A stretch of 64,000 bases of DNA, from the NCBI RefSeq assembly GCF_000353285.1, contig NZ_KB731324.1, forward strand, positions 1,444,577 to 1,508,576, given 5' to 3'. Origin of the DNA: Leptolyngbya boryana PCC 6306. GTDB taxonomy: Bacteria > Cyanobacteriota > Cyanobacteriia > Leptolyngbyales > Leptolyngbyaceae. The notes under the pieces were generated by a model. It did no database searches, had not been told where the DNA came from, and worked only from the letters and a program-made list of their open reading frames with translations. The translations under genes were made by a program, and so were the position numbers. Position 1 is the first letter of the stretch. Each line of letters begins with the position of its first letter. Shown here piece by piece: positions 6,133 to 32,082 of this stretch.

Positions 6133-6144
6133 ACGACCGAAACC

Positions 6145-11975: not shown

Positions 11976-11978
11976 AAC

Positions 11979-12158
11979 ATGAGAGTTGCAACGATCGAAG
12001 AAGTGCGCGACTTGTTCAAAGACCTTTACAAGCCACCATCGATCGAGGTTCGTAAAGGTGGGCAACAGGTACAGATTCAACCGCAATCCGGGGATATGAT
12101 TAAGCTCGATCGTGCGCCTGCGGTGAGTGCACGATCTTCGTTGCATTCATTGAGGTAG
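11979..12158 (+). CDS. Hypothetical micro-protein, 59 aa
   Basis: ATG 11979 starts 3 nt after the previous stop and the frame ends 3 nt before the next ATG. The protein begins MRVATIEEVRDLFKDLY and continues with a Gln/Val-rich strand region. It has no membrane segment. The perfect fit between its neighbours supports translation; function unknown. Confidence 0.5.
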   Translation: MRVATIEEVRDLFKDLYKPPSIEVRKGGQQVQIQPQSGDMIKLDRAPAVSARSSLHSLR

Positions 12159-12161
12159 TGC

Positions 12162-12650
12162 ATGAGTCGAGTCAAGATTGGTGTGAGAAACGAAGTTGAG
12201 TCGGTTACTTGGTACAACGCGATCGAGCTAAATGAACCCAAGTCGTTAGATTTCTGGGAATGGCTTAATGCTGACTGGAAAGAATGGCTTAATTGCTTCT
12301 CGATTTGGTGGCTAAAGCGTAGAGAACTACTACAGGAAACCGCTCACAAGAAAGTCAGTCTTGCATTTGAAGCAATTGAATTTGATGATCGGCAAATCAT
12401 CAAGCAGATTCGTCATCACATGGATGCCTTGTGCTACCGATACGGTGAGTATCCTTCAGTGGTCTATATTGGCAGAGACTTGCACGCCCAAGTGATTAGG
12501 TTCCACCTCGATCTGCCCGTAATGCGTCCCAGTCTTCACCCTGATTCTAGAATCCCTCATCCAATTACAACTTTATTGGGAGTTGACGTTGTATTTGTCC
12601 CGTGGATGGATGGGATTTTTGCATGGAATCCAAACTACGCTTCGCGGTAA
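12162..12650 (+). CDS. Hypothetical protein, 162 aa
   Basis: Not recognised. A Trp-rich N-terminal helix region (FWEWLNADWKEWLNCFSIWW) may lie at a membrane surface. The C-terminal half is alpha/beta (YPSVVYIGRDLHAQVIRFHL, TTLLGVDVVFVPWMDGIFAW) and resembles small Rossmann-like domains seen in some phage capsid-associated proteins, but I cannot name one. Its end overlaps the convergent DUF6464 gene by 16 nt. Confidence 0.5.
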   Translation: MSRVKIGVRNEVESVTWYNAIELNEPKSLDFWEWLNADWKEWLNCFSIWWLKRRELLQETAHKKVSLAFEAIEFDDRQIIKQIRHHMDALCYRYGEYPSVVYIGRDLHAQVIRFHLDLPVMRPSLHPDSRIPHPITTLLGVDVVFVPWMDGIFAWNPNYASR

Positions 12651-12919
12651 TCTGAGCATCGATCGCAAGTCTTCGCCATTGGATGTACCGCGCACCAAAG
12701 ATACCGACTATGGGCATTGTATCGACAGTCAGACGTATTGATAGGCTTGGCTTTTCGGAGTTGCCGAACAAGCGATCGATGCTTCAAAAACTCGATCAGA
12801 TTCGGGATGAGGATGGAAGCAACGATCGCGATCGGGACGAGTAGCAAGAGCATAGAAAAAGCGGCTATTTGCCGCCTGAACCTGAAAATCCATGAATGAA
12901 TACCGAATCTTAGCCGCAA
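12635..12919 (-). CDS. DUF6464-like small membrane protein, 94 aa
   Basis: A TM helix (FSMLLLLVPIAIVASILIPNLI) is followed by a Cys-rich tail: DCRYNAHSRYLWCAVHP then CDRC. The 'CxYN..S.YL.CAV.P...C..C' pattern is shared by small proteins common in cyanobacteria (DUF6464). The TTG start overlaps the GT2 stop by 10 nt, so it is the last gene of the GT2 operon. A host-derived family inside the element suggests past gene capture. Confidence 0.55.
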   Translation of the reverse strand: MRLRFGIHSWIFRFRRQIAAFSMLLLLVPIAIVASILIPNLIEFLKHRSLVRQLRKAKPINTSDCRYNAHSRYLWCAVHPMAKTCDRCSDYREA

Positions 12920-14421
12920 TCTTCTAGCTCAGTGCGAATTTCTCGCAAAACTAACCAGGACAGAACGACCTGTAAGCTCATCCATAGCAACGGAACTGTT
13001 TCAGATCGCCAAGGCACATCATGAATTGCTAAACCTAAAACCATCAAGGCTAATAGTGCAGGCGGAATGAATGCAATCATGCGAATAAAGCGATCGTACT
13101 TTGTCGATTTTGCCCCAGTCGCCCCCGTTGGAACCCATGGTGCAACATTGCCCCCCAGAACATCGATAATCCCGGATAGATGCGCGTAGCTTGCCGCGAT
13201 CGAGGTTGTTAGCACTGGCAACCCCCATCGATTCTTTGCCCACACCCCGCGAGCAATAATGGAAACCGCGATCGCTGGAAACACCAAACTGTAGTTACCT
13301 GCACTTAAATCCTGCGGATAGAACCACACATTGATCAGTGAGGGCAAGGGAAAGCAGAGAATTCCTAGTCCTGAAGTCGAATAGTAGAGGATCGAGAGAA
13401 CATAGGAGAATTTCGTCAGTAGATTGACGTTTGGCTGAGTCCAGAACTGACGAGATGTAATCAGATGTTTTGAGCCTGAGCACCATCTGTATTGTTGGTT
13501 GAAGAATCCCTTCACCGTATCGGGTGAGAGTCCTTTCGCGAGGCATAGCGGCAAATACTCGATCGTCCAACCATCTCTCAGTACCATCATTCCCGTGTTC
13601 ACATCCTCACTGCGCTCGACGGCAGCCGCGCCACCGTGAGGGGCAAGAGCCTCGCGACGGTAAATTGCATTCGAGCCACAGCACACTGATGCACCCCAAG
13701 CATTTCTAAAGTTCTGAATCAGTCTGTAGAACACTTCTTGCAGGAACGTTGCACCATTGGCGATCGCTGTTTGTTCTGGGGTGGATTGAAAGTACTGCGG
13801 TGTTTGCAGGATCGCTAGTTTGGGATTACGAGCGAAATAAGCAACGGTTTCAGCGAGAAAATCAGGGCGCGGGGCGAAATCCGCGTCAAACACCAAAATC
13901 AATGCTCCTTGAGAGCGGGCGAATGCGTGGCGCATATTGCCCGCTTTTTTTAGCTCTCCCTTGTTTGGACGAGACATATATTCAAAGCTGTGTAGCTCTG
14001 CTGCGATGCGAACTTCATCGCGTCCAGCATCATCGAGAACGTAAACTTTGAAATTCGGATAGTCAAGCTGCTTTACAGCCTTGAACTGATTGACCAAAAC
14101 CTGAATGTCTTCGCCGCAGTTCGGCAGATAGACATCGACAGTCGGAACATAATCAGAAAAACGCGATCGTACTTGCTCATGTTCAAGGGCGTTGAAGTTT
14201 CGAGCAAACCATGCACCAATCGCGCAAAATCCCACATTGGCAAAATAAATCAAACAAAACACGCCATAGCCTAGTAAGGCTGGATGCTTCGAGATGAACG
14301 AGATCGAGGTTACGGCAAAAGTCGTTAGCCCGATCGCGCCCACAAACCCTATCCACCGACCGTTCGGAGTGGAATAGGCGTATTTCTCGTCGTCACTCGG
14401 AACGGTGGGTAGATAGGTCAT
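12910..14421 (-). CDS. Membrane glycosyltransferase, family 2, cellulose-synthase-like
   Basis: The 503-aa protein has two N-terminal TM helices, then a processive GT2 domain: VDVYLPNCGED, VYVLDDAGRDE (first Asp), LVFDADFAPRPDF (DxD), and QQYRWCSG (the QxxRW box for processive transfer). Several C-terminal TM helices follow. Such enzymes polymerise and extrude beta-linked glycans from UDP-sugars at the inner membrane. ATG 14421 directly follows the 55-aa membrane gene with a 1-nt gap. Two prophage-type GTTCTGGGG motifs (13152, 13773) lie in it. In a prophage it could alter the host surface and exclude other phages (inference). Confidence 0.85.
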   Translation of the reverse strand: MTYLPTVPSDDEKYAYSTPNGRWIGFVGAIGLTTFAVTSISFISKHPALLGYGVFCLIYFANVGFCAIGAWFARNFNALEHEQVRSRFSDYVPTVDVYLPNCGEDIQVLVNQFKAVKQLDYPNFKVYVLDDAGRDEVRIAAELHSFEYMSRPNKGELKKAGNMRHAFARSQGALILVFDADFAPRPDFLAETVAYFARNPKLAILQTPQYFQSTPEQTAIANGATFLQEVFYRLIQNFRNAWGASVCCGSNAIYRREALAPHGGAAAVERSEDVNTGMMVLRDGWTIEYLPLCLAKGLSPDTVKGFFNQQYRWCSGSKHLITSRQFWTQPNVNLLTKFSYVLSILYYSTSGLGILCFPLPSLINVWFYPQDLSAGNYSLVFPAIAVSIIARGVWAKNRWGLPVLTTSIAASYAHLSGIIDVLGGNVAPWVPTGATGAKSTKYDRFIRMIAFIPPALLALMVLGLAIHDVPWRSETVPLLWMSLQVVLSWLVLREIRTELEDCG

Positions 14422-14422
14422 C

Positions 14423-14590
14423 TTACTTGCCCACGTACCACGAAACAATCAGCAAGACGACATCAGTGATGACGGATTGCGCGTCTAGCGTGGGAGTCTG
14501 CCCCGTGAGCACCCTGATCAACAGAAAAGCAAGCGGCATCGCACCTGTGATCGAAGTCACAAGGTCGGTATTTTTAACTTTGAGAGACAT
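14423..14590 (-). CDS. Small holin-like membrane protein, 55 aa
   Basis: ATG 14590 opens a 55-codon frame with two hydrophobic stretches (SITGAMPLAFLLIRVL and ITDVVLLIVSWYV) separated by a short polar loop. It ends one base before the GT2 ATG, so the two are probably co-translated. Small two-helix proteins of this kind are often holins, but a GT2 partner is equally possible. Confidence 0.45.
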   Translation of the reverse strand: MSLKVKNTDLVTSITGAMPLAFLLIRVLTGQTPTLDAQSVITDVVLLIVSWYVGK

Positions 14591-14649
14591 GAAAATTAAT
14601 TGAATTCTGCGGGCATCCCGTCTTGCGTGGCGCGGGCGTTCCAGTCCGA

Positions 14650-14832
14650 CTATGAATTCATTTGATAGGCTCGAAAAATCACGAAACCTGAGAGTAAAAC
14701 CGTAGCAACTGCACTACCCAAAGCAACCGTATAAAACAGTGTTGGAAGCGCTAAGAAGTCCGAAACAACCAGCGCGATCGCACATAAAAGAAGCGCGATC
14801 GACACAATAAATGAAAGAGCGATCGCAGTCAT
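14650..14832 (-). CDS. Two-helix membrane protein, 60 aa
   Basis: Nearly the whole protein is hydrophobic: TAIALSFIVSIALLLCAIALV, a short loop, then LFYTVALGSAVATVLLSGFVIF. No family recognised. It lies between the Cys-rich secreted-type protein and the holin-like gene on the reverse strand. A lysis or envelope role is possible. Confidence 0.5.
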   Translation of the reverse strand: MTAIALSFIVSIALLLCAIALVVSDFLALPTLFYTVALGSAVATVLLSGFVIFRAYQMNS

Positions 14833-14889
14833 GATTCTGCTGAATAAGGGCTTGCTGCTAGGATTCCCGCGAAATTCGTTGATGTTCTC

Positions 14890-15219
14890 TCAAGGCAAAA
14901 ATCGAAGCGTGATGTCGCAATAGTATCCTGCTCTGCATTCTGGAAGCCCTTCTGTGTCGCGACAGCTTGAGCAAGAAGTAATGACATCTTTATTGGTCGA
15001 TCGTTTTGCATATTCTTGGCACTGCCCAGTCGCATCCGCCTCAGAATCGGTATCAAAATATCTCCAAAAGCTCTGAACAGGTTCCGTCGCTGCAAGCTCA
15101 AGCGGGCATTGCTCACGCGAGGCTTCTCGAACAAACTGAATTGAGACGGCACTTAGAACAGAGATTGTCACGATAAGCAGGGCTATTCCAGCTTTTTTGA
15201 CCCACTGACTGATATCCAT
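14890..15219 (-). CDS. Signal-anchored Cys-rich protein, 109 aa
   Basis: A basic N-terminus and a hydrophobic segment (AGIALLIVTISVLSAVSIQF) form a signal anchor. The outside part has seven Cys (EQCPLEL, GQCQEY, SCSSCRD, PECRAGYYCDI), probably disulphide-bonded. It is promoter-proximal in the reverse cassette that ends with GT2 and DUF6464. ATG 15219 is preferred over TTG 15234. Function unknown. Confidence 0.5.
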   Translation of the reverse strand: MDISQWVKKAGIALLIVTISVLSAVSIQFVREASREQCPLELAATEPVQSFWRYFDTDSEADATGQCQEYAKRSTNKDVITSCSSCRDTEGLPECRAGYYCDITLRFLP

Positions 15220-15289
15220 ACGATGATTTTGCAACGATTTGAAGCTTTAAGGCTATCGTGATCAGCGAATCAGTCACGACTCTTCATAG

Positions 15290-18200
15290 ATGCTTCTTCA
15301 ATACGCTAACGGCAGATCTCAACTTCCCGCGCCCACAGTCACCGTCACATCTGGCGGTGAGGTTACTACCCCCAGAACACTATGGTTCGCAATCCAAGGA
15401 TGCAACCCGATCGGGTGCAACCTGCTGAGTGATCCGATCCAAGCCACGATCGCGGCAAATCAAAAAGCAACTGTGACCCTACCAGCAATCCTAGATGGCG
15501 AATCGTGGGATTCATTTGTGCTGAGTGCATCCGAGACAAATACGCCATCATCCTTTGTTGCGATCGCTCGAATTGAACCAGGAACAACGATCGAGCTATC
15601 GACCGACGCACATTTAAGCCTGAGCGAGATTGTTCTGAATCCCGCTGCACTGCCTACTGCAAGCCTAATCCCCGGCATGAGGCGCGGAGTGTCAAGCCTT
15701 GCTCAAGTCTTTGAGTATGACCCTACTTCACTTCTCCCCCAGAACAATCAGACCGTGCTATCTGCTGCGCCCGCTCCTGGAAACTGGCTGATTGTTGCTG
15801 GATTCTCGACTTATGTTGTCAACACTGACGATCCAGGTGGATGCGCTCAAGATGTCAGATCGATCGATGAATCCGTCGTCAATCTCAAAACCTATAACTG
15901 CAATGGCTCAAGCGGTGATGGCTTCAGGTTTTGGCTGATTAATGATTCCGACGATGCGATCGCGGCAGGTAAGCGCGTCATGATTGCGGTCACGCTCAAC
16001 GAAATGCCCAGATCGGGTTTATTTGAAGGGCTGTTGCGCTGTGTGTTTCGAGGCTACGTCAACACAATTACAGGTGCGCTCAGAGTCGAAGATAGCAACG
16101 GCAATCCGATGCGCGGGATTGATACCGAGGTGCTATTCGAGAACCAGAAAACTGATTTGATGCTCGAAGACGATTTGCAGCCGGATGAAGCTTACGCGAT
16201 CGATGTCTTCCCGAACTTCACCCCAGAACAACTCGATAATCAAATCCTCAATGGCTCACTGATCAAAATCAATCTCGGCTTGGCAGTGCAGGCGGGTGCA
16301 TACGTGGAGGGCGGATTTGCCAAGGGTGATCAAATCTATCCAGAGTACGATCGCGGAATCGTAATTCCTCAAGCGAGTGGTGCGAAGTGCCTCAAGCGAT
16401 CAGGCTTAGTCAATTCGCGATCGTTCCTTGCGGTTTCTCCCTCGCTTGTTCTGGGGTTAGCGCAAAACACGCTGAATCAACCGCTCTACATCAACTCCAA
16501 CGGTTCGGTTTATCTCAAGCCGCTGGATGAACCACAAGATGATACCGAGGCAATTCGAGCCAAGATCGGCACAGCAGCAGGGATTTCGAGCGCTTCAGAC
16601 TGGTCTGATCCTGTGACCTTTAGCGCGGGTGCGGGGTTAAAAGTGACCTGCTCCTATCCGTCCAATGGCACAAACGCTACGATTCGGGCGAACTATCCAG
16701 ACTCACTCATTGCAGGGAACACACAAGCCGAATTCAATCCGCCGTTTGCCGTGGTCTATGTGCGATCGACGGTTGCAAGTGTTGCCACAATCAAGAAGTT
16801 TGATGGCTATCTCGTGATTGATGCCGCGACTCAAGAATTTACGATCGACAATTGGAGTGCGGGCGAAACGATTTCGTCAATTCCAGTTGCAGATGAAGAT
16901 TTCAGCTTATTTGAGGCAATTTCGGCAACGCCTGAAACGTTTGGTTCTGGCACAATTCCAGCGGGCACGATCGAGGTTTGCTTTGCTTACGAATACGACG
17001 GCGCGCAAGTCACACTGATTTCGCACAGTACCCTAGATGGATGCCTGCATACGCGCACACTTACCGATGCTGAGGTAGAGGCATCGTCGCGCTACTGGAC
17101 AGAACCGCTTGCGACTCGTGAAGCGCTGCGATCGACCGTTCAGGTGCGAGTCAGCCCGTATCAGGCGAGATACCTGAAAGAAACTGAATCGCCGTGGTGG
17201 TTCAATCCTGAATCAACAGAGGATGAATCAGACCGGGTGATTCGTCCAGTGTGGCGCACTCCAGAACAACCGGGGCGATGGATTGAATCTGCGAGTAATC
17301 GCATTCTCACGCCTGATACTATCCCCACGGGAACGGCAGGAATCGGAGATATCGCGATCGTCTTGAAAAACGACACCGAAGATCCGGACCACGGCAAGGT
17401 GTATGAGTTTGAATCCTCTGGATGGACGTTCAAGGCAATCCTCAGAGGTCAACGGGGCGCGGCTGGGGCAAGAGGTTCAATTATTATTTTTGAAACTCCT
17501 CCGACCTCAGAAACCCCCGGAGATTTAGACGAAATCGGCTTTGTCCTCAATCCAGATCCGGACTACATCCATAACGGCAAGGTTTATCGCAAAGAGGCGG
17601 GTGGATGGGTCGAAATCGGCAACCTGAGCGGCGGCAGTGGTTCTGGGGGAGGTGGAAGCAACGTTCTCAGTACCGACGCGATCGCGCCTGCATTGCAGCC
17701 CAACGAACTATTTTTGTCGATCGATACCGACGATGCCGGATTGTATCCATTTCTAGAAGACGAATTCGGCAACCGCAGACGCATTGCAATGCCCGATCGT
17801 ACTCAGCTTTGGACAAGTGCGCAGCAATACAGGCTGGGTCTTGAGTATGACGAATTCGCCTTTGAACCAGTAGACGGGATTCGTAAAACTGGCGATGTTT
17901 ACACGATCGATGCAGCTTACGCGAATATTTTCGAGTTGGAGCTACGTGGAGAGGATACCGATGTCTCGATCGCGGTGATTAACGGCGTAGCGGGAACGCG
18001 GTTTGAGTTGTATCTGACTTGGGACGATTCCGACGCTCCGCGATCGCTGTCGTTCCCGAACGATTTTCAGTGGCTCGATCGCCCACTTGCCCCCGACTTC
18101 ACGGCTGAGAATTCAGCGCGCTCCCGTGCCAGCGTTCTTTACACGGGTAACAACTGGATTGCAAGCTACACGCCGCTTTTAACGACCTCAGAACCATTTG

Positions 18201-18964
18201 AGCCTGAGACGATCGATCTACTCGATCGCTTCACTGGCTACTACTCCAACATTCAACAAAATCGGATCAATACGCTCATCAAAACTCTGAAGGAAGCGGA
18301 CATCTGGGCAAGTAGCACGCTGTTTATTTTCGCGGCAGCGCACCCAGACGATGCGCGCCAATTTTGGACGCAATCAAACTTGCTCAATTCAACCTCAAAC
18401 ACGTTTACTCAGTGGCGCGGCATTACGACAGACAACCCAATGCCAGTTTCGTTTACGTATAGCGGGGTGCAAACACTGGGGTTATGGACAACCTACAACG
18501 ATCCGCAATCAGGCACGGATTTAGGGGTCGAAATCGTCGATTCAAGCACATACGATCAGGCTTCAACTTTACGATTCAGAAATAACTTGGGGCAGGCTCA
18601 GGGACGAGCACTCGGACGGTCCGATGTTTCGATCGCTTCATCGATCAACTTCTTTGATCCCGCGTGGATTGCTGCAACTCGCTATCCGCAAGGCGCAAAC
18701 CAGACAAACACTCTATTTCTCAACGGCTCTGAAATCGCGTCTCAAACAGAGCTAGCGACAAGTTTTAGTGGAACAAGTCCTGAATTTGTTCTGGGGGGAA
18801 GTCGCCGCGTTGTCACCTCTCCCGCAAGTTCAACGATCGTTGACCCGATCGTGCGCGAGTATTCCGCTCTTTTTGCCTCAGATCAGGCGCTCACCCCAGA
18901 ACAGCACAAGACACTCTATCGAGCAATGCAGACCTATCTTTCCAGTCTGCCAGGAGGGTTTTAG
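15290..18964 (+). CDS. Large tail fibre / receptor-binding-type protein, 1224 aa
   Basis: The protein is made of many beta-rich modules joined by linkers. There is one short collagen-like stretch (RGQRGAAGARG, about residue 715), a GSGSGGGGS linker (about 782), and a C-terminal region of about 230 residues that looks like a concanavalin/LamG-type lectin fold ending EYSALFASDQALTPEQHKTLYRAMQTYL. These are typical of tail fibres or spikes that bind the host surface. It divergently abuts the Cys-rich protein gene and is coupled by TAGTG to the next tail gene. Seven GTTCTGGGG(G) motifs lie in it. Confidence 0.6.
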   Translation: MLLQYANGRSQLPAPTVTVTSGGEVTTPRTLWFAIQGCNPIGCNLLSDPIQATIAANQKATVTLPAILDGESWDSFVLSASETNTPSSFVAIARIEPGTTIELSTDAHLSLSEIVLNPAALPTASLIPGMRRGVSSLAQVFEYDPTSLLPQNNQTVLSAAPAPGNWLIVAGFSTYVVNTDDPGGCAQDVRSIDESVVNLKTYNCNGSSGDGFRFWLINDSDDAIAAGKRVMIAVTLNEMPRSGLFEGLLRCVFRGYVNTITGALRVEDSNGNPMRGIDTEVLFENQKTDLMLEDDLQPDEAYAIDVFPNFTPEQLDNQILNGSLIKINLGLAVQAGAYVEGGFAKGDQIYPEYDRGIVIPQASGAKCLKRSGLVNSRSFLAVSPSLVLGLAQNTLNQPLYINSNGSVYLKPLDEPQDDTEAIRAKIGTAAGISSASDWSDPVTFSAGAGLKVTCSYPSNGTNATIRANYPDSLIAGNTQAEFNPPFAVVYVRSTVASVATIKKFDGYLVIDAATQEFTIDNWSAGETISSIPVADEDFSLFEAISATPETFGSGTIPAGTIEVCFAYEYDGAQVTLISHSTLDGCLHTRTLTDAEVEASSRYWTEPLATREALRSTVQVRVSPYQARYLKETESPWWFNPESTEDESDRVIRPVWRTPEQPGRWIESASNRILTPDTIPTGTAGIGDIAIVLKNDTEDPDHGKVYEFESSGWTFKAILRGQRGAAGARGSIIIFETPPTSETPGDLDEIGFVLNPDPDYIHNGKVYRKEAGGWVEIGNLSGGSGSGGGGSNVLSTDAIAPALQPNELFLSIDTDDAGLYPFLEDEFGNRRRIAMPDRTQLWTSAQQYRLGLEYDEFAFEPVDGIRKTGDVYTIDAAYANIFELELRGEDTDVSIAVINGVAGTRFELYLTWDDSDAPRSLSFPNDFQWLDRPLAPDFTAENSARSRASVLYTGNNWIASYTPLLTTSEPFEPETIDLLDRFTGYYSNIQQNRINTLIKTLKEADIWASSTLFIFAAAHPDDARQFWTQSNLLNSTSNTFTQWRGITTDNPMPVSFTYSGVQTLGLWTTYNDPQSGTDLGVEIVDSSTYDQASTLRFRNNLGQAQGRALGRSDVSIASSINFFDPAWIAATRYPQGANQTNTLFLNGSEIASQTELATSFSGTSPEFVLGGSRRVVTSPASSTIVDPIVREYSALFASDQALTPEQHKTLYRAMQTYLSSLPGGF

Positions 18965-19959
18965 TGGATAAAACCCCGGATGAAGTCGCTTATCAACTCA
19001 GGGAGATCGCGAATTCTGCTCAAAACATCATTTCTGCTGTGACCTCCAGCGCGGCAAGCCCAGGCGGATCGATTACGTTCCGCTACACCGATCACAATGG
19101 AACGCGCAGTGTCACGGGAACGGCTCACACGGCGATCAGTCCAGGAAACGTGCAAGCAATGCGAACCAATGACGGACAGTGGATTGTGTTCGGAACACCG
19201 ACCAGTCCAAGCCGCGAAGCGCTGCATGAGTCTCGACGGCGACGGGCAAAACCGGACGAACCCGGAAAAGTTAAGATTCTCTGTTTCAAAGATGGCGCGC
19301 TTTGGATTGGCGGCGATCGCCCAAATCCGAAACGCATCTACACGATTCCCGAAGGGGCGCGGCTTGATTTTGATCAGAGTCGCATCGTCAACAAAGGGGG
19401 CGGGGATAAGTGGATCGTGACCTTTGTTTTAATCGGTAACGATCGCACAGGGATCGTGGTTCTTCAATCCGGGGTTGGTACGCTTTGGGAGATCTGGATG
19501 GATGATCCGCGACTGAGTTCCTTGGCTGGTCCACGACCAGTCTTGTGGACTCAGACGGGATTGTGGACTCTCTTCAGCGGTAGCGGCGATGACACTACCT
19601 TTATTTATGCGGGGGAGGTTTACGGTAGCCTCGGCGAAAGCCCGCTTAATTACATCAACGGGCGACCCGATTTTGTTGATCCCAAGGCTGGTACGGCGAT
19701 TTACACCCGATCCGTTGGACTAGATATTCAGGTTCTCTTTTGGGATGGCGCGACTGAGACGGAAGTTCCGCTTTTGGAGTCGTTTCCGCTCGGTGCGCCA
19801 ACATTTATCAAAGACACGCTCTATTCCTGCCTAACCGAGGGAAAAACAGCGACGATAACAAAAATATCGCTCCCGTCTGGGGACACATCAACTCGGAAAA
19901 CGAAAGTCTTTCCGATTCCCAATGGTTACACTCGGCTTGATGTCGGATTCCACCCTTGA
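18964..19959 (+). CDS. Phage tail-associated protein, 331 aa
   Basis: A GTG start overlaps the fibre gene stop by one base. The N-terminal 90 residues are helical then beta; the rest has repeated short strands with Trp/Gly (GALWIGGDRP, DKWIVTFVLIG, GTLWEIWMDD, TGLWTLFSGS), compatible with a beta-propeller. A fibre accessory or tip protein is likely by position; no enzyme motif seen. Confidence 0.5.
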   Translation: MDKTPDEVAYQLREIANSAQNIISAVTSSAASPGGSITFRYTDHNGTRSVTGTAHTAISPGNVQAMRTNDGQWIVFGTPTSPSREALHESRRRRAKPDEPGKVKILCFKDGALWIGGDRPNPKRIYTIPEGARLDFDQSRIVNKGGGDKWIVTFVLIGNDRTGIVVLQSGVGTLWEIWMDDPRLSSLAGPRPVLWTQTGLWTLFSGSGDDTTFIYAGEVYGSLGESPLNYINGRPDFVDPKAGTAIYTRSVGLDIQVLFWDGATETEVPLLESFPLGAPTFIKDTLYSCLTEGKTATITKISLPSGDTSTRKTKVFPIPNGYTRLDVGFHP

Positions 19960-19998
19960 TTCGGGGAACGCTGAAGAAAATATTAAGCTCCCTGAAAC

Positions 19999-20433
19999 AT
20001 GACTACGACGATCGCGACAATTGGGACATCAACCAATCAATCCACTACTGGTCAAATGCCTACCCTGTTTGAAGGGGGAGTCGCTCTCGCCTTGCTGTAT
20101 TTTGTGCTCAAGGAAGCGATCGAGTTTTTCAAGAAAAAAGACGATGCCGAGGGCGCATTGACGCAATCCTTAATCGACGACTTGAGGAAGGAGCGCAAAG
20201 AGGATCTGTTCAACATGAGTCAGATCATGCTGAAGATTGATGGCTCTAATCAGCAAATCGCGATCGCAATTCACGACATGTCGAAAGCGATTCACGACTT
20301 GAATGTATCGACGCAGCAAAATGCTCGAATTCATTCCGAAATTTTCGGACTACTCCGAGAGCAAGAGCGTGTGTTGCACAAAATCGAAGCGCATATTAGC
20401 GATCGAGAAGCCCCGAAAAGAGTGTCGGTTTGA
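19999..20433 (+). CDS. Holin-like / XhlA-type single-TM coiled-coil protein, 144 aa
   Basis: A polar N-terminus, one TM helix (LFEGGVALALLYFVLKEAIEFF) and a long C-terminal coiled coil (residues about 55-130) with many Glu, Lys and Gln. This layout resembles XhlA-like or tail-associated holin partners. It is the last gene of the element, 66 bp before the attR tRNA fragment. Confidence 0.5.
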   Translation: MTTTIATIGTSTNQSTTGQMPTLFEGGVALALLYFVLKEAIEFFKKKDDAEGALTQSLIDDLRKERKEDLFNMSQIMLKIDGSNQQIAIAIHDMSKAIHDLNVSTQQNARIHSEIFGLLREQERVLHKIEAHISDREAPKRVSV

Positions 20434-20498
20434 GGACAATTTGAGTACGAAATCAAATCAACTCTCGTAAAATCCTCCTTTATCAAGGTTTTTAAGCT

Positions 20499-20552
20499 TA
20501 GAGTGCATCCTTGACAGGGATGAAGTCACTGGTTCGAATCCAGTATCGCCCA
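20499..20552 (+). repeat. attR: 3' fragment of tRNA-Val(GAC), right end of the integrated element
   Basis: The stretch starts TAGAGTGCATCC, with an anticodon loop TTGACAG (anticodon GAC, Val) on a 5-bp CATCC/GGATG stem. It continues with a T-arm CTGG-TTCGAAT-CCAG and ends ATCGCCCA. The 5' half (acceptor strand GGGCGAT and D-arm) is absent. Such 3' tRNA remnants mark one junction of tyrosine-recombinase elements; the intact tRNA should be recreated at the other end, left of this window. Confidence 0.8.
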
Positions 20553-20720
20553 TCAATTTCAGGATACCGAGTTTCATAGCTCCCTAAAACATCCCTAAAA
20601 CCGAGTTACAACCGAATAAGTGAGACGCGATATCAAAGCGTATTCACAGCTTCTTAAGGGAAGAGAAACCTATGGGAAGTCTATGAATACCAAGACTGAT
20701 ACCGCTGTTTTTTTCGGTAT

Positions 20721-20763
20721 GTCCACAACTTGCAGTTTGATTTTATAAATGCAAGTTGTGGAC
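20721..20763. repeat. Perfect 14-bp inverted repeat in a non-coding region
   Basis: GTCCACAACTTGCA and its exact complement TGCAAGTTGTGGAC are separated by 15 AT-rich bases. The surrounding 20553-21023 region (about 470 bp) holds no gene I can support. The repeat may be a structured RNA or the remnant of a small mobile element; no U-tract follows on the plus side. Confidence 0.5.
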
Positions 20764-21023
20764 GTGCGTACTAAAGTTCAGTTGTATCAAGCGTGATCGA
20801 CACAATTTGCCTCTAGAAAACATAAGCCCGTTCCCTATTCCAGTGGCAATGGAAGGAATCGGTTTGATGATAAATTTCGAGTCTGCATCTGCGCCGATGA
20901 CGACCGCAGCATAGCTGATTCTAGCGATCGTGCTTCGGATCTACGCGGTACTAGCTTGGTTACGGTACGCTGAAGCATGGAGGCTTTTTCGTACCCATTT
21001 CGTTGAGCGATTGCTTTTATCCC

Positions 21024-21464
21024 ATGAATAGCGAATCTTCTCGTTCGTTGCCCTGGCTCTCGTTAGGACTGTTTTGGTGCGCTTATGCCATGCTCGGATG
21101 GTATCTTGCGGCGCATCATATTATCTGGCTTGTTGGAGCCGCCGCAATCCTTGCAATCGTGATCATTTCTGGAACGGGCAGGGCTTTGCTTGAGCAGTTG
21201 TCCGGAGTGATTTCTCGCACTTTATTGATCGTTGTATTCCTGAGCTTTTTGATTAGTGTCTGTGCATTTCTATTTGTCAGCAAGTTTGAGTTCTTGGGTT
21301 TAGTCTTTCTGCCACTTGTGACAGCGGTTCTAGCGGATCTCAGCCTGCGTTCTGCGGGGTTTGAGCAGCGTCAGATATGGATTTATCTTGTCGTTATCGC
21401 TGGATTAGGAATCGGTTTAGGCGAGGTGTTCGACCTTGTATTCCTTCCGAGCATGCGGTACTGA
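21024..21464 (+). CDS. Integral membrane protein, 146 aa
   Basis: Not recognised. About five hydrophobic helices are visible (LSLGLFWCAYAMLGWYLA, IIWLVGAAAILAIVII, TLLIVVFLSFLISVCAFLF, LVFLPLVTAVLADL, IWIYLVVIAGLGIGLG). ATG 21024 is chosen over the TTG at 21003. It is the first host gene right of the prophage. Confidence 0.55.
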   Translation: MNSESSRSLPWLSLGLFWCAYAMLGWYLAAHHIIWLVGAAAILAIVIISGTGRALLEQLSGVISRTLLIVVFLSFLISVCAFLFVSKFEFLGLVFLPLVTAVLADLSLRSAGFEQRQIWIYLVVIAGLGIGLGEVFDLVFLPSMRY

Positions 21465-21597
21465 AGAAGTCCAAATCATTAGAGCCGCGATCGTAACCGC
21501 TCTCTACACTGCCAGAAACTATAGCGAAGACGAAGCCTCGTATGAATGGGTAAATTTTCAATTAAAGCTGATCCCTCAATACTGGGAGGAGCCCTGA
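21436..21597 (+). CDS. Possible small or truncated ORF, 53 aa
   Basis: A TTG-initiated frame overlapping the membrane-protein end gives a protein-like sequence, EVQIIRAAIVTALYTARNYS then YEWVNFQLKLIPQYWEEP. There is no good start or ribosome site. It reads like the C-terminal tail of a larger protein whose front has been lost. Confidence 0.3.
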   Translation: MYSFRACGTEEVQIIRAAIVTALYTARNYSEDEASYEWVNFQLKLIPQYWEEP

Positions 21598-21622
21598 GTT
21601 AACCGAGGATTTTTGCAAACTT

Positions 21623-21907
21623 GTGAAGTCGCTTCGGCGGCGGCAGGAAGCTTACGCAAATCTTGAGGCACAACAGGGGAATTCTAAGCCCGTTCCCTCA
21701 AGATTTGCGCCAATGGAAAATCAATGGACAGCCCGACCCTGGAAAGTATTTCAAGGTGTGGGGATCTCATTCCTGCTGATCGTGGTTCTCGCCTTCATCT
21801 ATGGCAAGTTCATTCATCACCCGTTGCGTATCTGGCTGGCGGATGGGGAATGGTGCGTCAGATTTTCTCCAGATGGATCGGGAAAAGTCCTCTACGGCTT
21901 CGAGTGA
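21623..21907 (+). CDS. Single-TM hypothetical protein, 94 aa
   Basis: A basic soluble N-terminus (residues 1-40), one TM helix (GVGISFLLIVVLAFIYGKFI) and a short C-terminal tail ending VLYGFE. The start is a GTG at 21623; an internal ATG lies at 21713. No family recognised. Its last codons resemble the sequence at 22672-22700 (TCCTCTAYGGCTYCGAGTG), hinting at a local duplication. Confidence 0.45.
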   Translation: MKSLRRRQEAYANLEAQQGNSKPVPSRFAPMENQWTARPWKVFQGVGISFLLIVVLAFIYGKFIHHPLRIWLADGEWCVRFSPDGSGKVLYGFE

Positions 21908-22062
21908 GATCGTTAACAGATTGAGATAGTCCAGCCTTGTTTTTCTCTGGTTTGATAAGCTTGAGTAGCTCTGACGGGATCTCTATCAGTAGGATTGCAG
22001 CAGAGTTATGGAAAATGGGTGCCAGTCAAGCTTCTTCGATCTTCTTTGATAAGGAAACAGTG

Positions 22063-22632
22063 ATGAAATATCTCGCAGTGGCTCTCCTCTCTTGCATCGT
22101 TCTGTCCAGTGAGATGCTGGCTACTTCTAGAAATCAGGCAGCGATCGCCGCTCCCAAACCCCCTTTAGATAATCCGGCAATTGATATGCCAGGGTATTTG
22201 CGCGTTTCCTATGAAGCTGCAAAGCATCGGGAGACACGCCGAATTTCTGAGGACGACTTTATTCGCATGAGCCGTGAACCGAATACGATCATCCTGGATG
22301 CCCGGAGCCGCGAGAAGTATGATTTGCTGCATATCAAAGGGGCAATCAATCTGAGCTTTCCAGACATTACGGTTGAAAGTTTGAAAAAAACGTTTCCTGA
22401 CAAATCAGCGCGAATTCTCATCTATTGCAACAACAATTTCATCAACGCTGAAGAACCTTTTCCTTCAAAACTCCCAACGGCTTCCCTCAATCTCTCAACC
22501 TACATTGCCTTGTATAACTACGGCTATCGCAATATCTACGAACTGGCTCCCCAAATTGACCCAAAGGTGTCCAAACTTCCCTTTGAATCGGCTCCCGTCT
22601 CAACCTCGTCTCATGGAAGCATCGTTCCTTAA
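22063..22632 (+). CDS. Secreted rhodanese-like domain protein, 189 aa
   Basis: A signal peptide (MKYLAVALLSCIVLSSEMLA) is followed by a rhodanese fold: ISEDDFIRMS, TIILDARSREKYDLLHIKGAINL (the CH2A-like box) and ARILIYCNNNF, where the Cys is the likely active-site nucleophile. Rhodaneses move sulphane sulphur; a periplasmic location is implied here. ATG 22063 follows AAGGAAA. The gene ends 3 bp before a transposase remnant. Confidence 0.75.
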   Translation: MKYLAVALLSCIVLSSEMLATSRNQAAIAAPKPPLDNPAIDMPGYLRVSYEAAKHRETRRISEDDFIRMSREPNTIILDARSREKYDLLHIKGAINLSFPDITVESLKKTFPDKSARILIYCNNNFINAEEPFPSKLPTASLNLSTYIALYNYGYRNIYELAPQIDPKVSKLPFESAPVSTSSHGSIVP

Positions 22633-22635
22633 ATT

Positions 22636-23480
22636 ATGCGATCGCATTCTCCCTGTCTGGCACAAGAACAATCCTCTATGGCTCCGAGTGCGATCGCTAA
22701 ACCAAAGCTCATGCGCAAGGGGAAACGTGGCGGACAAGGCAAGTTTGGTGTCGAAGACCAACTGCTCATTGCGATGGCATATTGGCGAGAATATCGCACC
22801 ATCTTACTCAATTCCCTACGGAGGGAAATCCTCCTACAGGATTGAGCGCCAGTTCCACATCGGGCAAAGTTGGGGAATTCATGAAACGACGGTTGGACGC
22901 ATTGTCCGCAAGATTGAAAACATCTTGATTCAGTCGGGTGAGTTCTGCTTGCCAGGTAAAAAAGCGCTGCACTCAGCCCAGACCGAATGGAACATCCTCG
23001 TCGTCGATGTGAGTGAGAGTCCAATTGAACGCCCAAAAAAAACAACGACCTTACTACAGTGGCAAGCAGAAATGGCACACGCTAAAAGCTCAAGTGGTTG
23101 TGGACTATCTCAGCGGGATGATTATCTGTACTGCTTTTGACAAAGGGCGAAAACATGACTTTCGCATCTTCAAGGGTTCGCAACTTCCGACTCAACTTGA
23201 GCAACTCTGGGTCGCAGACCGAGGCTATCAAGGCATCGCCAAGTTTCATGCTTACAGGTGTACTCCAGTCAAAAAGTCGCGCAAGCGCTCCCTCTCCAAA
23301 GCGGAACGGCAATTCAATCGCCAATTAGCGCAAGTTCGCATCACGGTAGAACACACCTTTCGCAAGCTGAAGATCTTTCGCATCTTATCGGAGCGCTATC
23401 GCAATCGACGCAAGCGCTTTGGGCTACGCTTCAACCTGATTGCAGGCTTACTCAACTACGAGCTTACTCACTCAAACTGA
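22636..23480 (+). pseudogene. IS5-type transposase remnant (broken, N-terminally truncated)
   Basis: Three frames carry consecutive parts of one DDE transposase: FGVEDQLLIAMAYWREYRT (to about 22800), then FHIGQSWGIHETTVGRIVRKIE to SPIERPKK, then YYSGKQKWHTLKAQ to the end. Catalytic residues are seen as VVDVSE (D), VADRGYQG (D) and VEHTFRKLKIF (E). About 30 N-terminal residues usual in the family are missing. A 49-nt insertion after codon YRT breaks the first frame. The second switch lies at an A8 run (23033-23042 area) where programmed -1 frameshifting is common in this family, so only the first break must be inactivating. Confidence 0.8.
22807..22846. repeat. 40-nt foldback (small dispersed repeat-like) inserted in the transposase
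   Basis: CTCAAT and ATTGAG close a cloverleaf-like element with two internal hairpins: TCCCT-ACGG-AGGGA and AATCCT-CCTAC-AGGATT. It lies exactly where the transposase reading frame is interrupted between YRT and FHIGQ. Small dispersed repeats of this kind are known in cyanobacteria, including inside other mobile elements. Confidence 0.55.
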
Positions 23481-23660
23481 TTCGTGCAGGAGGTCTAATA
23501 GTGCGATGACTTCTGCTTGATTGGCTGTGGTTTTGAGTTGCTGTTGCAACTGTGCGTTTTGTAGCAATTCTTTGAGAGTTTGAAGCGTGGATGTTCCCCT
23601 AATTTGTGACTTGGTTCTGAATGTTATCGGTGGCAGCGTTAAGTTGTGTCTCCGTCGCAT
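23472..23660 (-). CDS. Nif11-like leader-peptide-type fragment, 62 aa
   Basis: Residues about 27-55 (LQTLKELLQNAQLQQQLKTTANQAEVIALL) resemble the Nif11/NHLP-type leader pattern 'L..LL..vq.d..Lq.qLk.A.n..EvialA'. Such leaders guide RiPP precursor modification in cyanobacteria. The C-terminal end runs into the IS remnant, and no Gly-Gly core region follows, so it is probably truncated. Confidence 0.35.
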   Translation of the reverse strand: MRRRHNLTLPPITFRTKSQIRGTSTLQTLKELLQNAQLQQQLKTTANQAEVIALLDLLHESV

Positions 23661-23860
23661 TCCTGAACTGATTTGAATTGAATCAATTTATCGGGGAGAA
23701 GCCGTGGAGAAACTTGCTCAAAAAGAGAATTTTCAGCACTCCGAAAAGACTCGCTCGCATAAAGTCAAATCGGGGAGAACTAGGGGACTTGTTGCATTCC
23801 GTAAGGCTTCCTCGCATCGTGAACCCGTACAATGCAATCAGCGTTGGATGTTGGGATTGG

Positions 23861-25759
23861 ATGCGGATTTTAATTGTTGAAGATGATGAGGCGATCGCGA
23901 ATTTAGTTGCGCAATCGCTCAAAGCACATCACTATGCAGTTGATATTGCTGATGATGGTTCGATCGGCTGGGAATGCGCAGAAAGCACCACTTATGACTT
24001 AATTCTGCTCGATGTGGATTTGCCCAAACTCGATGGCATTTCACTTTGTCAGCAACTTCGCGATCGCCGCTGTGAAACGCCAATTTTGTTGATGACCGCA
24101 AAAAATGCAACCGAACATCGCATTCGAGGATTGGATGCAGGAGCAGATGATTACTTAGTCAAGCCGATCGACTTGGGAGAACTACAAGCACGAGTTCGAG
24201 CACTCCTGAGACGCGGTGTTGTGGGAGCGTCGCTGTTAGAAGTTGGAGATTTGCGGCTTGATCCGCAATCGTGCCAAGTTACTTATGCCGAGGAACTATT
24301 ATCGCTGACCCCGAAGGAATATAGCCTTTTAGAGCTATTTCTGCGTCATCCTGCCCGTGTATTTAGCTGTGGAGACATTATTGAGCATCTATGGACGTTT
24401 GATGATCCCCCGCAAGAAGACAGCGTTAAATCCCATATCAAAGGCTTGCGACAGAAATTAAAAGCCGTCGGTGCAGTCAATTGGATTGAGAATGTCTACG
24501 GATTAGGCTATCGATTGAATCAAACCATCGGAAAAGAAGAGAAGAAAACGACGATCGATGACGCGAAAACAATCGCTTCTCCGGTTTCTGAACCCGAAGT
24601 CCCCGATTCTGAACCATACAATCAAGCGGTAGCGCAACTTTGGAATCAGTATCGTGGGTTAATGGAAGAACGCCTAACAGTGCTACAGCAAGCCGTTCAA
24701 GCGTTGAGGACTGAGACGTTAACCGAGGATATGCAGCAAGCGGCAGAACGAGCGGCGCATAAATTGGCGGGCGTATTGGGAATGTTCGAGCGTCCCGAAG
24801 GCACTCAGATTGCGCGTCAGCTTGAGGAACTTTTTTCAGGACAGCTAAATTCTCAACAGCACCCCGCACTCCAGTTGCTCGTTCAACAGTTGAGTCAAGT
24901 ATTGGAGATTGAGCAGTCGAGCATCGAGCAGATTGAAGTTCAAATTGAAGTTCAACCCATTACGACACCTGCTTCGATTCGATCGTGGAACATTCTCGCA
25001 GTCGATGATGATCCGATCATTCTCGCCACGTTAAAGCAACAACTTGAACCTTGGGGAATGCGCGTCACGGCGATCGAGAATCCCTTACAATTTTGGACGA
25101 TTCTACCCAGCGTTAATCCGGATCTGATGATTTTGGATGTGGAGATGCCGCAACTCAATGGAGTCGCACTCTGTCAAGCGATTCGAGCGAATCCAACTTG
25201 GCAAAGTTTGCCGATCGTCTTCCTCACTGCTCATCAAGACCCTGCAACGGTTCAGCAAATTTTTGCAGCGGGAGCCGATGATTATGTGGTTAAACCTGTG
25301 GTTGGGCACGAATTAATTTCACGGATTACCCAACGATTAGAGCGAATTCGATTGCTGCAAACATTGTCCACTAAAGATTCGATCACTGGACTTTCCAATC
25401 AATATCATTCGAGTCAAGTGATCGCGACGCTCATAACACAAACCCAATCGGGCTGTTTTGCGATCGCATATCTGCCAACACTCAGACAAATCAATATTCA
25501 ACAAGGTCACGCCGCTGGAAATCAAACCTTGAAACAATTAAGTCAACATTTAGAAATGACTTTTAACAACGCAGCAATCTTAGGATATTGGGGGAATGGA
25601 GAATTTGCGATTGCACTTTCTCACACTTCAAAAGAAGCCTTGCAAAAACAACTCTCAGCCATCCCAATGAGGTATGAATTTGCAATTGTGCAATATCCAG
25701 TCGATGGATTTACTGTACAAGCGCTGTATCAAGCTGCAAGTCTCTGCTTAGAAGGTTAA
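23861..25759 (+). CDS. Multidomain response regulator REC-wHTH-HPt-REC-GGDEF-like, 632 aa
   Basis: REC1 (residues 1-118, phosphoacceptor Asp51 in LILLDVDLP) is followed by an OmpR/PhoB winged helix (about 128-222: LTPKEYSLLELFL, VKSHIKGLRQKL, VYGLGYRL), an HPt-like helical domain (about 250-350, with AAERAAHKLAG), REC2 (about 378-495, LMILDVEMPQ) and a GGDEF-like domain (about 505-630) in which the signature reads WGNGEF, so cyclase activity is doubtful. It should bind DNA and also relay phosphate. ATG 23861 starts the REC domain. It lies 4 nt before the hybrid kinase gene, a likely cognate pair. Confidence 0.9.
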   Translation: MRILIVEDDEAIANLVAQSLKAHHYAVDIADDGSIGWECAESTTYDLILLDVDLPKLDGISLCQQLRDRRCETPILLMTAKNATEHRIRGLDAGADDYLVKPIDLGELQARVRALLRRGVVGASLLEVGDLRLDPQSCQVTYAEELLSLTPKEYSLLELFLRHPARVFSCGDIIEHLWTFDDPPQEDSVKSHIKGLRQKLKAVGAVNWIENVYGLGYRLNQTIGKEEKKTTIDDAKTIASPVSEPEVPDSEPYNQAVAQLWNQYRGLMEERLTVLQQAVQALRTETLTEDMQQAAERAAHKLAGVLGMFERPEGTQIARQLEELFSGQLNSQQHPALQLLVQQLSQVLEIEQSSIEQIEVQIEVQPITTPASIRSWNILAVDDDPIILATLKQQLEPWGMRVTAIENPLQFWTILPSVNPDLMILDVEMPQLNGVALCQAIRANPTWQSLPIVFLTAHQDPATVQQIFAAGADDYVVKPVVGHELISRITQRLERIRLLQTLSTKDSITGLSNQYHSSQVIATLITQTQSGCFAIAYLPTLRQINIQQGHAAGNQTLKQLSQHLEMTFNNAAILGYWGNGEFAIALSHTSKEALQKQLSAIPMRYEFAIVQYPVDGFTVQALYQAASLCLEG

Positions 25760-25763
25760 ACCT

Positions 25764-28700
25764 ATGAGTAACGCCTCTAATTCAGTTCCGCAACTCCAAC
25801 GCGACGATTTGATTACTGTTCTAGAGTCAGCCGTTGATTTGATTGGAATTGCCGATGCGGAAGGCAGAACGCTTTATGTCAACCCTGCAACCCGCCGAGT
25901 CATGGGGTTTGGAGAGACCGAAGACATTTTACAGAAACGCATTCTAGACTATCATTCCCCCGAAGCTGCTAAGTTTCTGATGGAAGAAGCTTTTCCGATT
26001 GCTTTACAACACGGAATTTGGATGGGCGAAACGCGCCTGCTGAGGACGGATGGACAAGAGATTCCAACGTCTCAAGTGATCATGACGCACAAAAATCCAG
26101 ATGGATCGTTGAAGTTCGTTTCTTCAATGATGCGAGACATTACCGAGCAAAAAGCGATCGAAGAACAACTTCGACGTAGTAATGCGTTGCTCAAGGCTCA
26201 GCAAGAAGCCTCGATCGATGGCATCCTAGTTGCAGACGAACACCGCAACATTGTTGATTACAATCAAAAGTTCTGTGAAATCTGGCGATTGCCACAAATT
26301 CTAACGGCTAGAAGCTCGCGTCAGATTGCAGAAATGGTTGCAGATCAGGTAGAAGACCCAGAAGCTTTTTTAGCAGACATCGAAGCGCTTTATCAGAACT
26401 TAGATGAAGTTCTGCACGATGAGCTTTTGTTGAAAGATGGACGAACGATCGAACGCCATAGTAAAGCAGTAAAGTCTCCAACAGGCGAATATTACGGGCG
26501 GATTTCGTTCTTTCGAGATATCACCGAGCGTAAGAGTGCTGAGAAAGCACTTCGTCGTAGTGAAGGTCGATATCGTGCCTTTGTCACCGCAACGGCTCAA
26601 GCGGTTTGGATGACCAATGCTCAAGGAGAAGTAGTCGAAGATATTCCGCTTTGGTGTGCGCTCACGGGACGCAGCGCCGAAAGTGCAAAAGGCTGGGGAT
26701 GGCTTGAAAGCGTTCATCCCGACGATCGCGCTCCTACCGCACAGGTTTGGTTAGACGCAGTCAATTCTGGAACAATCTATGAAGTTGAACAACGGGTGCA
26801 GATAGCATCGGGTGAATATCGATTGTTTGCGGTGCGAGGTGTCCCCATTTTCGATGAGCAGGGCAAGATTCAAGAGTGGATTGGAACGCAAACCGACATC
26901 ACTGAACAAAAACAAGCCGAAGAAGCATTGCGGCATCAGAATGCTTTACTCCAAGCGCAACAACAAGCCTTACAGCGCAGTGAACTCAAATATCGCAATC
27001 TGTTTGAAACCGCTCAAGTTGGCATCTACCGAATTCGCTTAGAAGATGGGCTAATTCTAGAAGCAAATCCGTATGCGATCGCGGCTCTTGGTTACGATTG
27101 CGCTGATGAAGTCGTTGCTAAGAAATACACGATCGATTTCTATGCCGATCTCAGCGATCGAGACATCATTCTCGATGAAATTCAAAAGCATGGCAAAGTC
27201 ACGAACTATGAAATGCAGTTTCGTTATCGGGATGGATCATTGCGATGGGGAATGTTTACTTTGTCGATCAATGCTGCCGAAAATGTTTTAGAGTCTGTCT
27301 TTACCGATATTACCTCCCGCAGACAAACCGAAGAAGCGCTGCGGCGGAGTGAACTGAAATACCGTCATTTGTTCGAGAATTCTCAAGTTGGGATTGGACG
27401 CACCCGCATCGAAGATGGTTTATTTCTCGATGCGAATCAACGCTGTGCGGATATTCTGCGGCTTGAATCGGCAAGCGACTTGATTGATAAACGCTACACC
27501 AGCGAGTTTCAGGTTGATCCGCAGGCACGGCAGTTGATGTTGAATGCTCTTCAGCAAAACGAAGAAGTACGCGATTTAGAAACGCAATTGCATCGAGCAG
27601 ACGATTCAACAGGTTGGGGCTTGTTTTCGCTGCGTCCGAGCTTAGAAGAAGGCTGCTTTGAGTTCGTGATTGTGGATATCAGCGATCGTAAAGCTGCCGA
27701 AGAATCACTGCAACGTCGCGCTGGACTCGATAACTTACTCAGTCAAATCTCTCGACAGTTCATTGACCAAGATGCAGAAACCGCAATTGGGGAAGCTTTG
27801 GAGCTGATTACTCGCCATATTGGTGCAGAGCGCGGCTGCATCTTCGAGTACTGGAACAATCACGGTGAATGTCAATTGTTGTACGAATGGTGTGGTGAGA
27901 ATATTGCTCCCTTAACTCCTGAAGCAAGAGGGTCGAGTGTTCCTGAATTTCCCGTTCTACACCAGCAGATTCTTTCAGGAGAAGCCTTATATACGACCAA
28001 TATCGCAATGATTCCGGACTCTCCAGAACGACGGTTATTTATGCAACAGTCGATTCAGTCGTTAATGGCAGTGCCCGTGATTTACCAGGGAAACGTAACG
28101 GGCTTTATGGGGGTGGACACGACTCATTTTCAGAAAGCTTGGAGTCAGGAGGATATTAACAGCCTCAGATTGGTGGGTGAACTCATTGCGATCGGACGAG
28201 CCAGATACAAAGCCGAAGCCGATTTACGTATCGCGAAAGAAGCGGCGGAAACAGCAAATCTCGCAAAGAGTACGTTTCTTGCCAACATGAGCCATGAACT
28301 GAGAACGCCGTTGAATGCAATTCTTGGATTTGCTCAATTGATGGAGCGTGAGGTTGCACTGTCCGATCGACAACGCAATTCGCTTGCCATTATCAATCGC
28401 AGTGGTGAACATTTGCTAGATCTGATCAATGATGTATTGGAGATGTCCAAGATTGAAGCCGGACGAACGACGTTAAACCTGGTTTCCTTTGATTTGCATC
28501 ATCTTTTGTACACGCTACAAGAAATGTTTTTAATGCGGGCAAAGGCAAAGCATCTTGCGTTGAATTTTACGATCGCACCTAATCTTCCGCAGTACATCCA
28601 AACCGACGAAAACAAGCTCCGACAAGTCTTGATCAATTTGCTCAGCAATGCGATGAAGTTTACAGACCACGGCAGCATTACGCTCGAAGCAACGGTGCAA

Positions 28701-29636: not shown

Positions 29637-29672
29637 TGCTCGATCAAGATCAGCAACGATCGCTACAGCAAG

Positions 29673-30434: not shown

Positions 30435-30455
30435 AACGGTTGGGAAGGAGATACG

Positions 30456-31460: not shown

Positions 31461-31497
31461 GATGTCTTTCACTCCAAGTAATGTTCAACAGTAATAG

Positions 31498-31974: not shown

Positions 31975-32082
31975 AATAACCTCTGAGAAAGTTCTGAATT
32001 GGATACATCAGCTTTAACTTGCTGATGACCCTTAAAGTAAGGAACGATCGAGGAAAAGTCGGGGAGATGCTGAAAAAAATCT

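Follow-up and report, generated by a model that had tools for sequence, protein, structure and literature searches.

Integration by tyrosine integrases into tRNA genes leaves a recognisable architecture, in which the gene is restored by the copy that the element carries and the displaced fragment comes to lie at the element's far end (PMC4383910). The Islander rule captures this as an intact tRNA, a downstream 3' fragment in the same orientation and a tyrosine integrase between them, over a span of 2-200 kb, and tandem islands in one tRNA gene are also described, with 125 tandems among 3919 islands (PMC4383910). That fragments of tRNA genes are mistaken for tRNA genes is a known problem (PMC9897764). 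All features of the islands mapped by that rule (PMC4383910) are also present in the prophage reported here, and we see no difference in principle from them as they are described there. What does set it apart is that its phage genes belong to a group without a close terminase relative among the 20 GenBank phage matches listed, the best of which reaches 43.9% identity over 63%.

We analysed a window of 64 kb (the whole stretch, C1:1444577-1508576, of a 7.26-Mb source genome in five contigs; plain numbers below are window positions). With a probability of roughly 0.93, we conclude that 20499-20553 represents the attR of a prophage of 77.8 kb that sits in tRNA-Val(GAC), with what is probably the left end of an older element on its right. 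This stretch is one copy of a 55-bp repeat, 100% identical to C1:1387261-1387315, both on the + strand with a spacing of 77,814 bp. An intact tRNA-Val(GAC) (C1:1387243-1387314), ending 57.3 kb before the window starts, has the left copy as its 3' part. When the source genome was searched with 20499-20553, its sole 100% partner was C1:1387261-1387315, the next-best matches being parts of tRNA-Val(CAC) (81%) and of tRNA-Val(TAC) (74%), and an exact copy of 55 bp far exceeds what chance would produce. The intact tRNA and the fragment displaced from it thus share one replicon, with the 3' fragment downstream in the same orientation and within 2-200 kb, a tyrosine integrase lies inside and adjoins one att site, virion genes (terminase large subunit, portal and major head protein) lie between the ends, and four congeners (G002, G003, G006 and G007) carry the tRNA free of the prophage.

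The original prediction had placed an attR in tRNA-Val(GAC) here and expected an intact copy of the gene left of the window with a 3' part equal to the fragment; both are borne out by the exact repeat and its intact partner on the same contig. Its details need some adjustment. The fragment was given as 54 nt (20499-20552) and is there, although the repeat runs one base further; it was said to lack the 5' acceptor strand and the D arm, which is right for the acceptor strand and most of the D arm, whereas the 3' strand of the D stem is retained. Its distance of 66 bp from the last phage-type gene is close to what we find (the final ORF stops at 20433, 65 bp before the fragment), but that ORF has no PHROGs match, leaving the term phage-type unsupported. 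Finally, calling it the right end of the element is correct for the prophage but not for all inserted DNA, as the left end of an older element probably follows. ARAGORN made zero tRNA calls in the whole window, the piece at 20499-20553 included. The Rfam tRNA family (RF00005) matches 20487-20552 on the + strand above its gathering score (33.5 bits vs 29), so that a model-based annotation could falsely label a tRNA there. The fragment resembles the mistaken tRNA fragments described earlier (PMC9897764) in passing the gathering score of a tRNA model, and is unlike them in that ARAGORN does not call it.

Table 1. Features of the locus and of comparable elements in the source genome (window positions unless prefixed C1).
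Feature	Position	Strand	Remark
Prophage, right 20.5 kb of 77.8 kb	1..20498	.	structural genes 9007-11778, 15290-18964; HU homologue 1225-1500; glycosyltransferase 12910-14448 (-)
Internal XerC/D-like tyrosine recombinase, C-terminus	1..285	+	whole gene C1:1443875-1444861
TTGAGTACGAA, candidate arm-type integrase site of the prophage	20441..20451	+	partner pair C1:1387443 and 1387454
Pseudo-tRNA, not a functional tRNA	20487..20552	+	tRNA covariance model, 33.5 bits
attR core, 55 bp: tRNA-Val(GAC) 3' part plus one base	20499..20553	+	partner attL C1:1387261-1387315, outside window
Module starting immediately behind the tRNA 3' end	20553..20714	+	model R1 match, 137.8 bits
Probable older accreted island, attR to ancestral neighbour gene	20554..38843	.	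right boundary inferred from synteny
CCCTAAA-N4-CCCTAAA direct pair, candidate arm-type sites of the older element family	20582..20599	+	
14-bp perfect inverted repeat, closing part of the module	20721..20763	.	
GDT1-family gene, orthologue of the direct follower of tRNA-Val(GAC) in four congeners	38844..39476	-	
tRNA-Lys interval, 29.6 kb	C1:5962617-5992335		
tRNA-Pro interval, 47.5 kb	C1:2745543-2793099		
tRNA-Ala interval, 9.1 kb	C1:2047767-2056917		

ORFs in C1:1380001-1470000 were called by a simple, crude script. Counting from the intact tRNA, the first one lies 153 bp on, outside the window, and encodes a tyrosine integrase of 354 aa (C1:1387468-1388532; PF00589, 56.4 bits; PHROGs integrase, E 6.9e-38). 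It is followed on the - strand by genes for the major head protein (E 1.3e-10), the portal (E 1.1e-20) and the large terminase (E 9.8e-100, also matching PF03237 and PF17289), and the prophage further encodes a ParA-like protein, an Erf/Rad52-like protein, an HU homologue and a 512-aa glycosyltransferase. Two window ORFs, 9007-11778 and 15290-18964, have PHROGs matches of unknown function over most of their length (E 1.9e-86 and 3.9e-86, respectively), and many of the ~48 distinct prophage proteins searched, including that of the last ORF before attR, had no PHROGs or Pfam match. The original prediction had relied on a second tyrosine recombinase, at the left edge of the window, to mark the boundary. 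This gene encodes 328 aa, is nearer to XerC (E 7.7e-35, under the curated cut-off) and lies 56.6 kb inside the prophage, so it cannot mark an end; being Xer-like and internal, with another integrase adjoining attL, it was rejected as the boundary integrase, and the boundary gene had been misassigned. We also noticed that this recombinase (C1:1443875-1444861) and the ParA-like gene (C1:1406070-1407512, - strand), present besides the integrase, make up a mix that would also be expected of plasmid-like maintenance.

Just inside the two ends, the prophage carries paired 11-bp repeats. The 77.9-kb element has exactly two copies of TTGAGTACGAA, at C1:1387443 and at C1:1465017 (window 20441), both forward and one near each end, against an expectation of 0.04 copies in the 64-kb window. 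The left copy is followed 11 bp on (C1:1387454) by TTGAGTACTG, so that two direct repeats stand between attL and the start of the integrase gene, and the right copy (20441-20451) stops 47 bp short of the core; TTGAGTAC alone is found at two further internal places in the prophage. The TTGAGTACGAA repeats are laid out like arm-type sites, and the integrase may bind them. Under this scheme, the attL-adjacent integrase would have recombined the phage attP, which carried the 3' part of the tRNA, with the tRNA gene, whereby the left-hand tRNA would have been completed with the phage copy and the 3' part native to the host displaced to the right end. The strand exchange point used, the binding of the repeats by the integrase and a prophage still able to excise are what we infer from this arrangement.

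Of 291 genomes of the class, six (counting the source genome) have portal homologues at E <=1e-10, with identities of 65% (G017), 47% (G117) and 23-24% (three others). At E 1e-10, the portal was not detected in the congeners G002, G003, G006, G007, G004 and G005, and G001 had a 24% match only. One contig, G017:C86, groups homologues of the head protein (65%), the terminase (53%), the integrase (32%) and window ORF 9007-11778 (38%) with others, gene 67 among them, and no tRNA was found on it. A 20-kb stretch of G117 carries the head protein, the portal and both large window proteins. In one scan of genome contigs the terminase gave a single match, at 29%, and viral contigs scanned with the portal and with 9007-11778 yielded no relative, in a weak scan that required exact short peptide matches. 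The closest relatives found are prophage contigs in these two other cyanobacterial genomes, G017 and G117. Integrase matches at E <=1e-20 occur in 36 of 58 genomes. Sixteen of the 20 integrase loci listed, the source locus being one of them, were scanned for tRNAs; in nine of the other 15 a tRNA in the same orientation ends 138-414 bp before the integrase (Ala-GGC in two, Val-GAC in three, Pro in four), one has a tRNA in opposite orientation, and five have none in reach. The analysis gives exact ends and size for a prophage in the genome of a filamentous-type cyanobacterium.

The attR itself is ordinary and of a common kind; its right-hand neighbour is less ordinary and more interesting. In G002, G003, G006 and G007, a convergent gene stands some 25-70 bp beyond tRNA-Val(GAC); its product in G003 belongs to the GDT1 family. 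The orthologue in the source genome occupies 38844-39476 (protein 74-77% identical to G002, G003 and G006; DNA 72% identical to G007), and is probably, judging from this synteny, the ancestral neighbour gene of tRNA-Val(GAC). It lies 18.3 kb beyond attR, on top of the prophage, and the sequence right of attR is thus probably an older element, not the ancestral chromosome. In G005, an intact tRNA-Val(GAC) is followed by a short form of the module described below, 7.2 kb of further DNA, a decayed tRNA-Val piece (tRNA positions 30-70, 83%) and, 26 bp on, the GDT1 gene. The module stands immediately behind tRNA-Val(GAC) in G001, where no GDT1 match beside the tRNA was among the matches listed, and in G004 the flank of tRNA-Val(GAC) resembles, by eye, a shortened module, the GDT1 gene and the tRNA being on different contigs with no tRNA piece before the gene. 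On the left, the neighbour of the tRNA in the source genome is an SppA-like peptidase gene. An 86% identical protein is encoded beside tRNA-Val(GAC) in G004, and the gene is missing from the 0.9-1.9 kb examined upstream in G001, G002, G003, G005 and G006. Because only G004 of the six congeners compared has this neighbour, the locus is rearranged on the left too, and the synteny argument stands on the right side only.

Between 20560 and 45000, no tRNA-Val piece better than 15 nt with 3 mismatches was detected, and no second CCCTAAA pair was seen where the older island is supposed to end on the right. The locus is like the described tandem islands (PMC4383910) in that a second inserted region directly adjoins the fragment, and unlike them in that the Islander rule as given there expects every tandem member to bring an integrase and a tRNA fragment of its own, whereas no such tRNA-Val piece was found for 20554-38843. 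Base composition (G+C of 0.493 for the prophage, 0.487 for the left flank, 0.468 for the island and 0.475 beyond it) does not distinguish these parts. Two minor observations concern the content of this region. A DDE transposase gene split into frame pieces occupies 22636-23480 (PF13359 at 23013-23480), part of which is 99% identical to C1:224027-224436. Moreover, the small-gene region at 20824-21464 and 21476-21940 recurs in pieces, 74-91% identical, behind other modules and in arrays such as C1:2789261-2792996, which looks like shuffled small gene cassettes.

The DNA directly behind the fragment is a conserved, foldable module of ~210 bp (20553-20768). It matches sequences that follow tRNA-Pro(TGG) and tRNA-Met(CAT) in the source genome and tRNAs in congeners. 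Eleven copies could be aligned with a mean column identity of 71%. The structure taken from one copy was kept by 69.7% of cells, vs 27.9-45.0% after sliding by 1-3 columns, with 26 pairs changed on both sides; none of 500 shuffles scored as high on any of the five measures. Some helices are weak (36-55% of cells paired), RNAalifold alone gave a modest consensus (covariation term -0.43), and two copies folded singly had z scores of -5.56 and -6.22. The module has U-rich, terminator-like tails. Searching Rfam over 19900-22100 with E up to 1 returned tRNA only, leaving the module without a family, and on this ground a known RNA was rejected as its identity. We recognised no paper, by title, as describing a module that trails tRNAs. 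Integron attC-like sites were dropped as a candidate, since the palindromes that end the module occur once per locus by the motifs tried. CRISPR-associated (type V-K) transposons insert downstream of tRNAs; these too were dropped, given the tRNA pieces at the far ends and the tyrosine-recombinase-like genes in the Lys and Pro elements described below.

A model (R1) built from 12 of the copies was searched against 58 genomes at E <=0.01, giving 44 rows in 9 genomes, 14 of which were repeats on the other strand, hence 30 places; a search of 42 genomes of the order at E <=1e-4 added one. Both searches ran with Infernal's stricter filters, so further copies may exist. All 31 places lie at a tRNA 3' end, 25 at intact tRNAs (23 within 3 bases, and two partial matches at the expected offset) and 6 at fragments, namely Val here, Lys in G007 and G001, Phe in G001, His in G005 and one in G009, the G005 His and G009 copies having been classed as tRNA 3' pieces by eye. 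The three weakest places are all at intact tRNAs. Nine tRNA kinds bear the module (Val-GAC, Val-CAC, Lys-CTT, Pro-TGG, Met-CAT, Phe-GAA, His-GTG, Ala-GGC and Cys-GCA), and no recombinase was seen directly after it in 13 loci.

Downstream of three of the module-bearing tRNAs of the source genome we found a 3' piece of the same tRNA: for Lys at 29.6 kb (100% over 44 bases), for Pro at 47.5 kb (93%) and for Ala at 9.1 kb (93%). None was found in the source genome for tRNA-Met. The Lys interval encodes a tape measure protein and a D5_N/DUF3854 protein, and the Pro interval a primase-polymerase. Adjoining both the Lys and the Pro fragment is an ORF of 364-365 aa with weak to clear similarity to integrases (PHROGs integrase, E 3.4e-4 and 7.2e-12, without Pfam or NCBIfam match). 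Queried with the two prophage recombinases, the Ala interval yielded no recombinase; the same queries also failed to find those of Lys and Pro. In the source genome and in G001, the short left-end module of the tRNA-Lys elements is followed by repeated motifs of the GGAGTCA type (such as cggagtcaccggagtcag), which are possibly iterons.

Within the module lies a direct pair, CCCTAAA-N4-CCCTAAA, that occurs once in the window (20582-20599) at up to 2 mismatches. Among 187 kb of source DNA chosen to hold these elements there were eight such matches, six at a module or right end and two elsewhere. Both ends of the tRNA-Lys and tRNA-Pro intervals of the source genome carry the pair, the right-end copy being placed at -134 (exact) for Lys and at -133 for Pro, where the 18-mer is identical to that of the Pro module. 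An exact pair also stands at -133 at the right end of the Lys element of G001, the left module of which shows CCCTAAATCTGCCCTAGA by eye. No clear pair was found at the right ends of the Lys element of G007, the His element of G005 or the Phe element of G001, and at tRNA-Val here it is present at the left end only. One contig each of G001 and G007 carries an intact tRNA-Lys with a module variant and, 23.5 and 32.8 kb away, a tRNA-Lys piece with a full module; this is the same stacking as at tRNA-Val(GAC) here.

These observations bear on whether an older element is needed at all. One could grant the attR of the prophage and regard the module as an inherited 3' flank, i.e., a structured trailer or terminator shared by several tRNAs of the genus. 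Its start right after the tRNA, its strong folding (z -5.6 and -6.2) and its U-rich terminator-like tails would all suit such a role, as would the diverse genes that follow it and the lack of a recombinase just behind it in 13 loci. Yet the module is missing between tRNA-Val(GAC) and the GDT1 gene in four congeners, and in G005 the 7.2-kb insert ahead of that gene is bordered by the module on one side and a decayed tRNA piece on the other. In addition, three elements repeat the module's pair towards their right end, at 133-134 bp from the tRNA piece. We therefore judge an inherited flank unlikely.

Two further readings dispute the prophage itself. If the 77.8 kb were a decayed or composite island, with the Xer-like recombinase and ParA belonging to a separate plasmid-like element inside it, then the two recombinases, the ParA-like gene and the strand change between the head genes (-) and the later structural genes (+) would fit. 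A composite of this kind nevertheless seems improbable to us, given that G017:C86 groups homologues of the integrase, head genes, terminase, gene 67 and 9007-11778, and that the att repeats agree at all 55 bp and the main ORFs are long and open. The fragment might also be a chance or duplicated tRNA piece with no tie to integration, since some relatives likewise carry short tRNA-Val 3' pieces; several of these relatives have an integrase of their own at a tRNA. We give this reading next to no credence in the face of an exact 55-bp copy in the same orientation, as a 3' piece downstream of its intact tRNA, with an integrase and phage genes between.

Returning to a prophage next to an older element, we suggest that an element of another integrase family used the same tRNA first, and that the prophage later wedged itself between the tRNA and this element. 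The displaced 3' part would then be the older element's copy, and the attR core would also be that element's former left junction. Both the order of insertion and the unity of 20554-38843 as one element are presumed here from the arrangement. For annotation, this would mean that the right neighbour of an attR can be the end of an older element, and that taking the first base after attR as host chromosome is wrong by ~18 kb at this locus.

More tentatively, and at somewhat under even odds, the module might belong to an undescribed family of integrative elements found in the genus and sparsely in its family. Its left end would be the ~210-bp foldable module behind at least nine tRNA genes; the core site would vary with the tRNA, while the CCCTAAA arm sites and the folded part would stay. 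The module might double as trailer or terminator of the rebuilt tRNA, and later arrivals would push older modules away. If true, orphan modules behind tRNA fragments would be a fossil record of earlier integrations, with each tRNA a stack. For the genus, the module is in any case an easily searched sequence mark by which hotspots of integration and the scars of old integrations can be found.

Two observations lie apart from these elements. At C1:3023884-3026733, twenty tRNA model matches fall on one strand within 2.85 kb, forming a tRNA array. The source is assigned to the cyanobacteria on the strength of the octamer GCGATCGC, which we take to be a cyanobacterial marker and which has 57 sites in the 64-kb window vs 2.28 expected.
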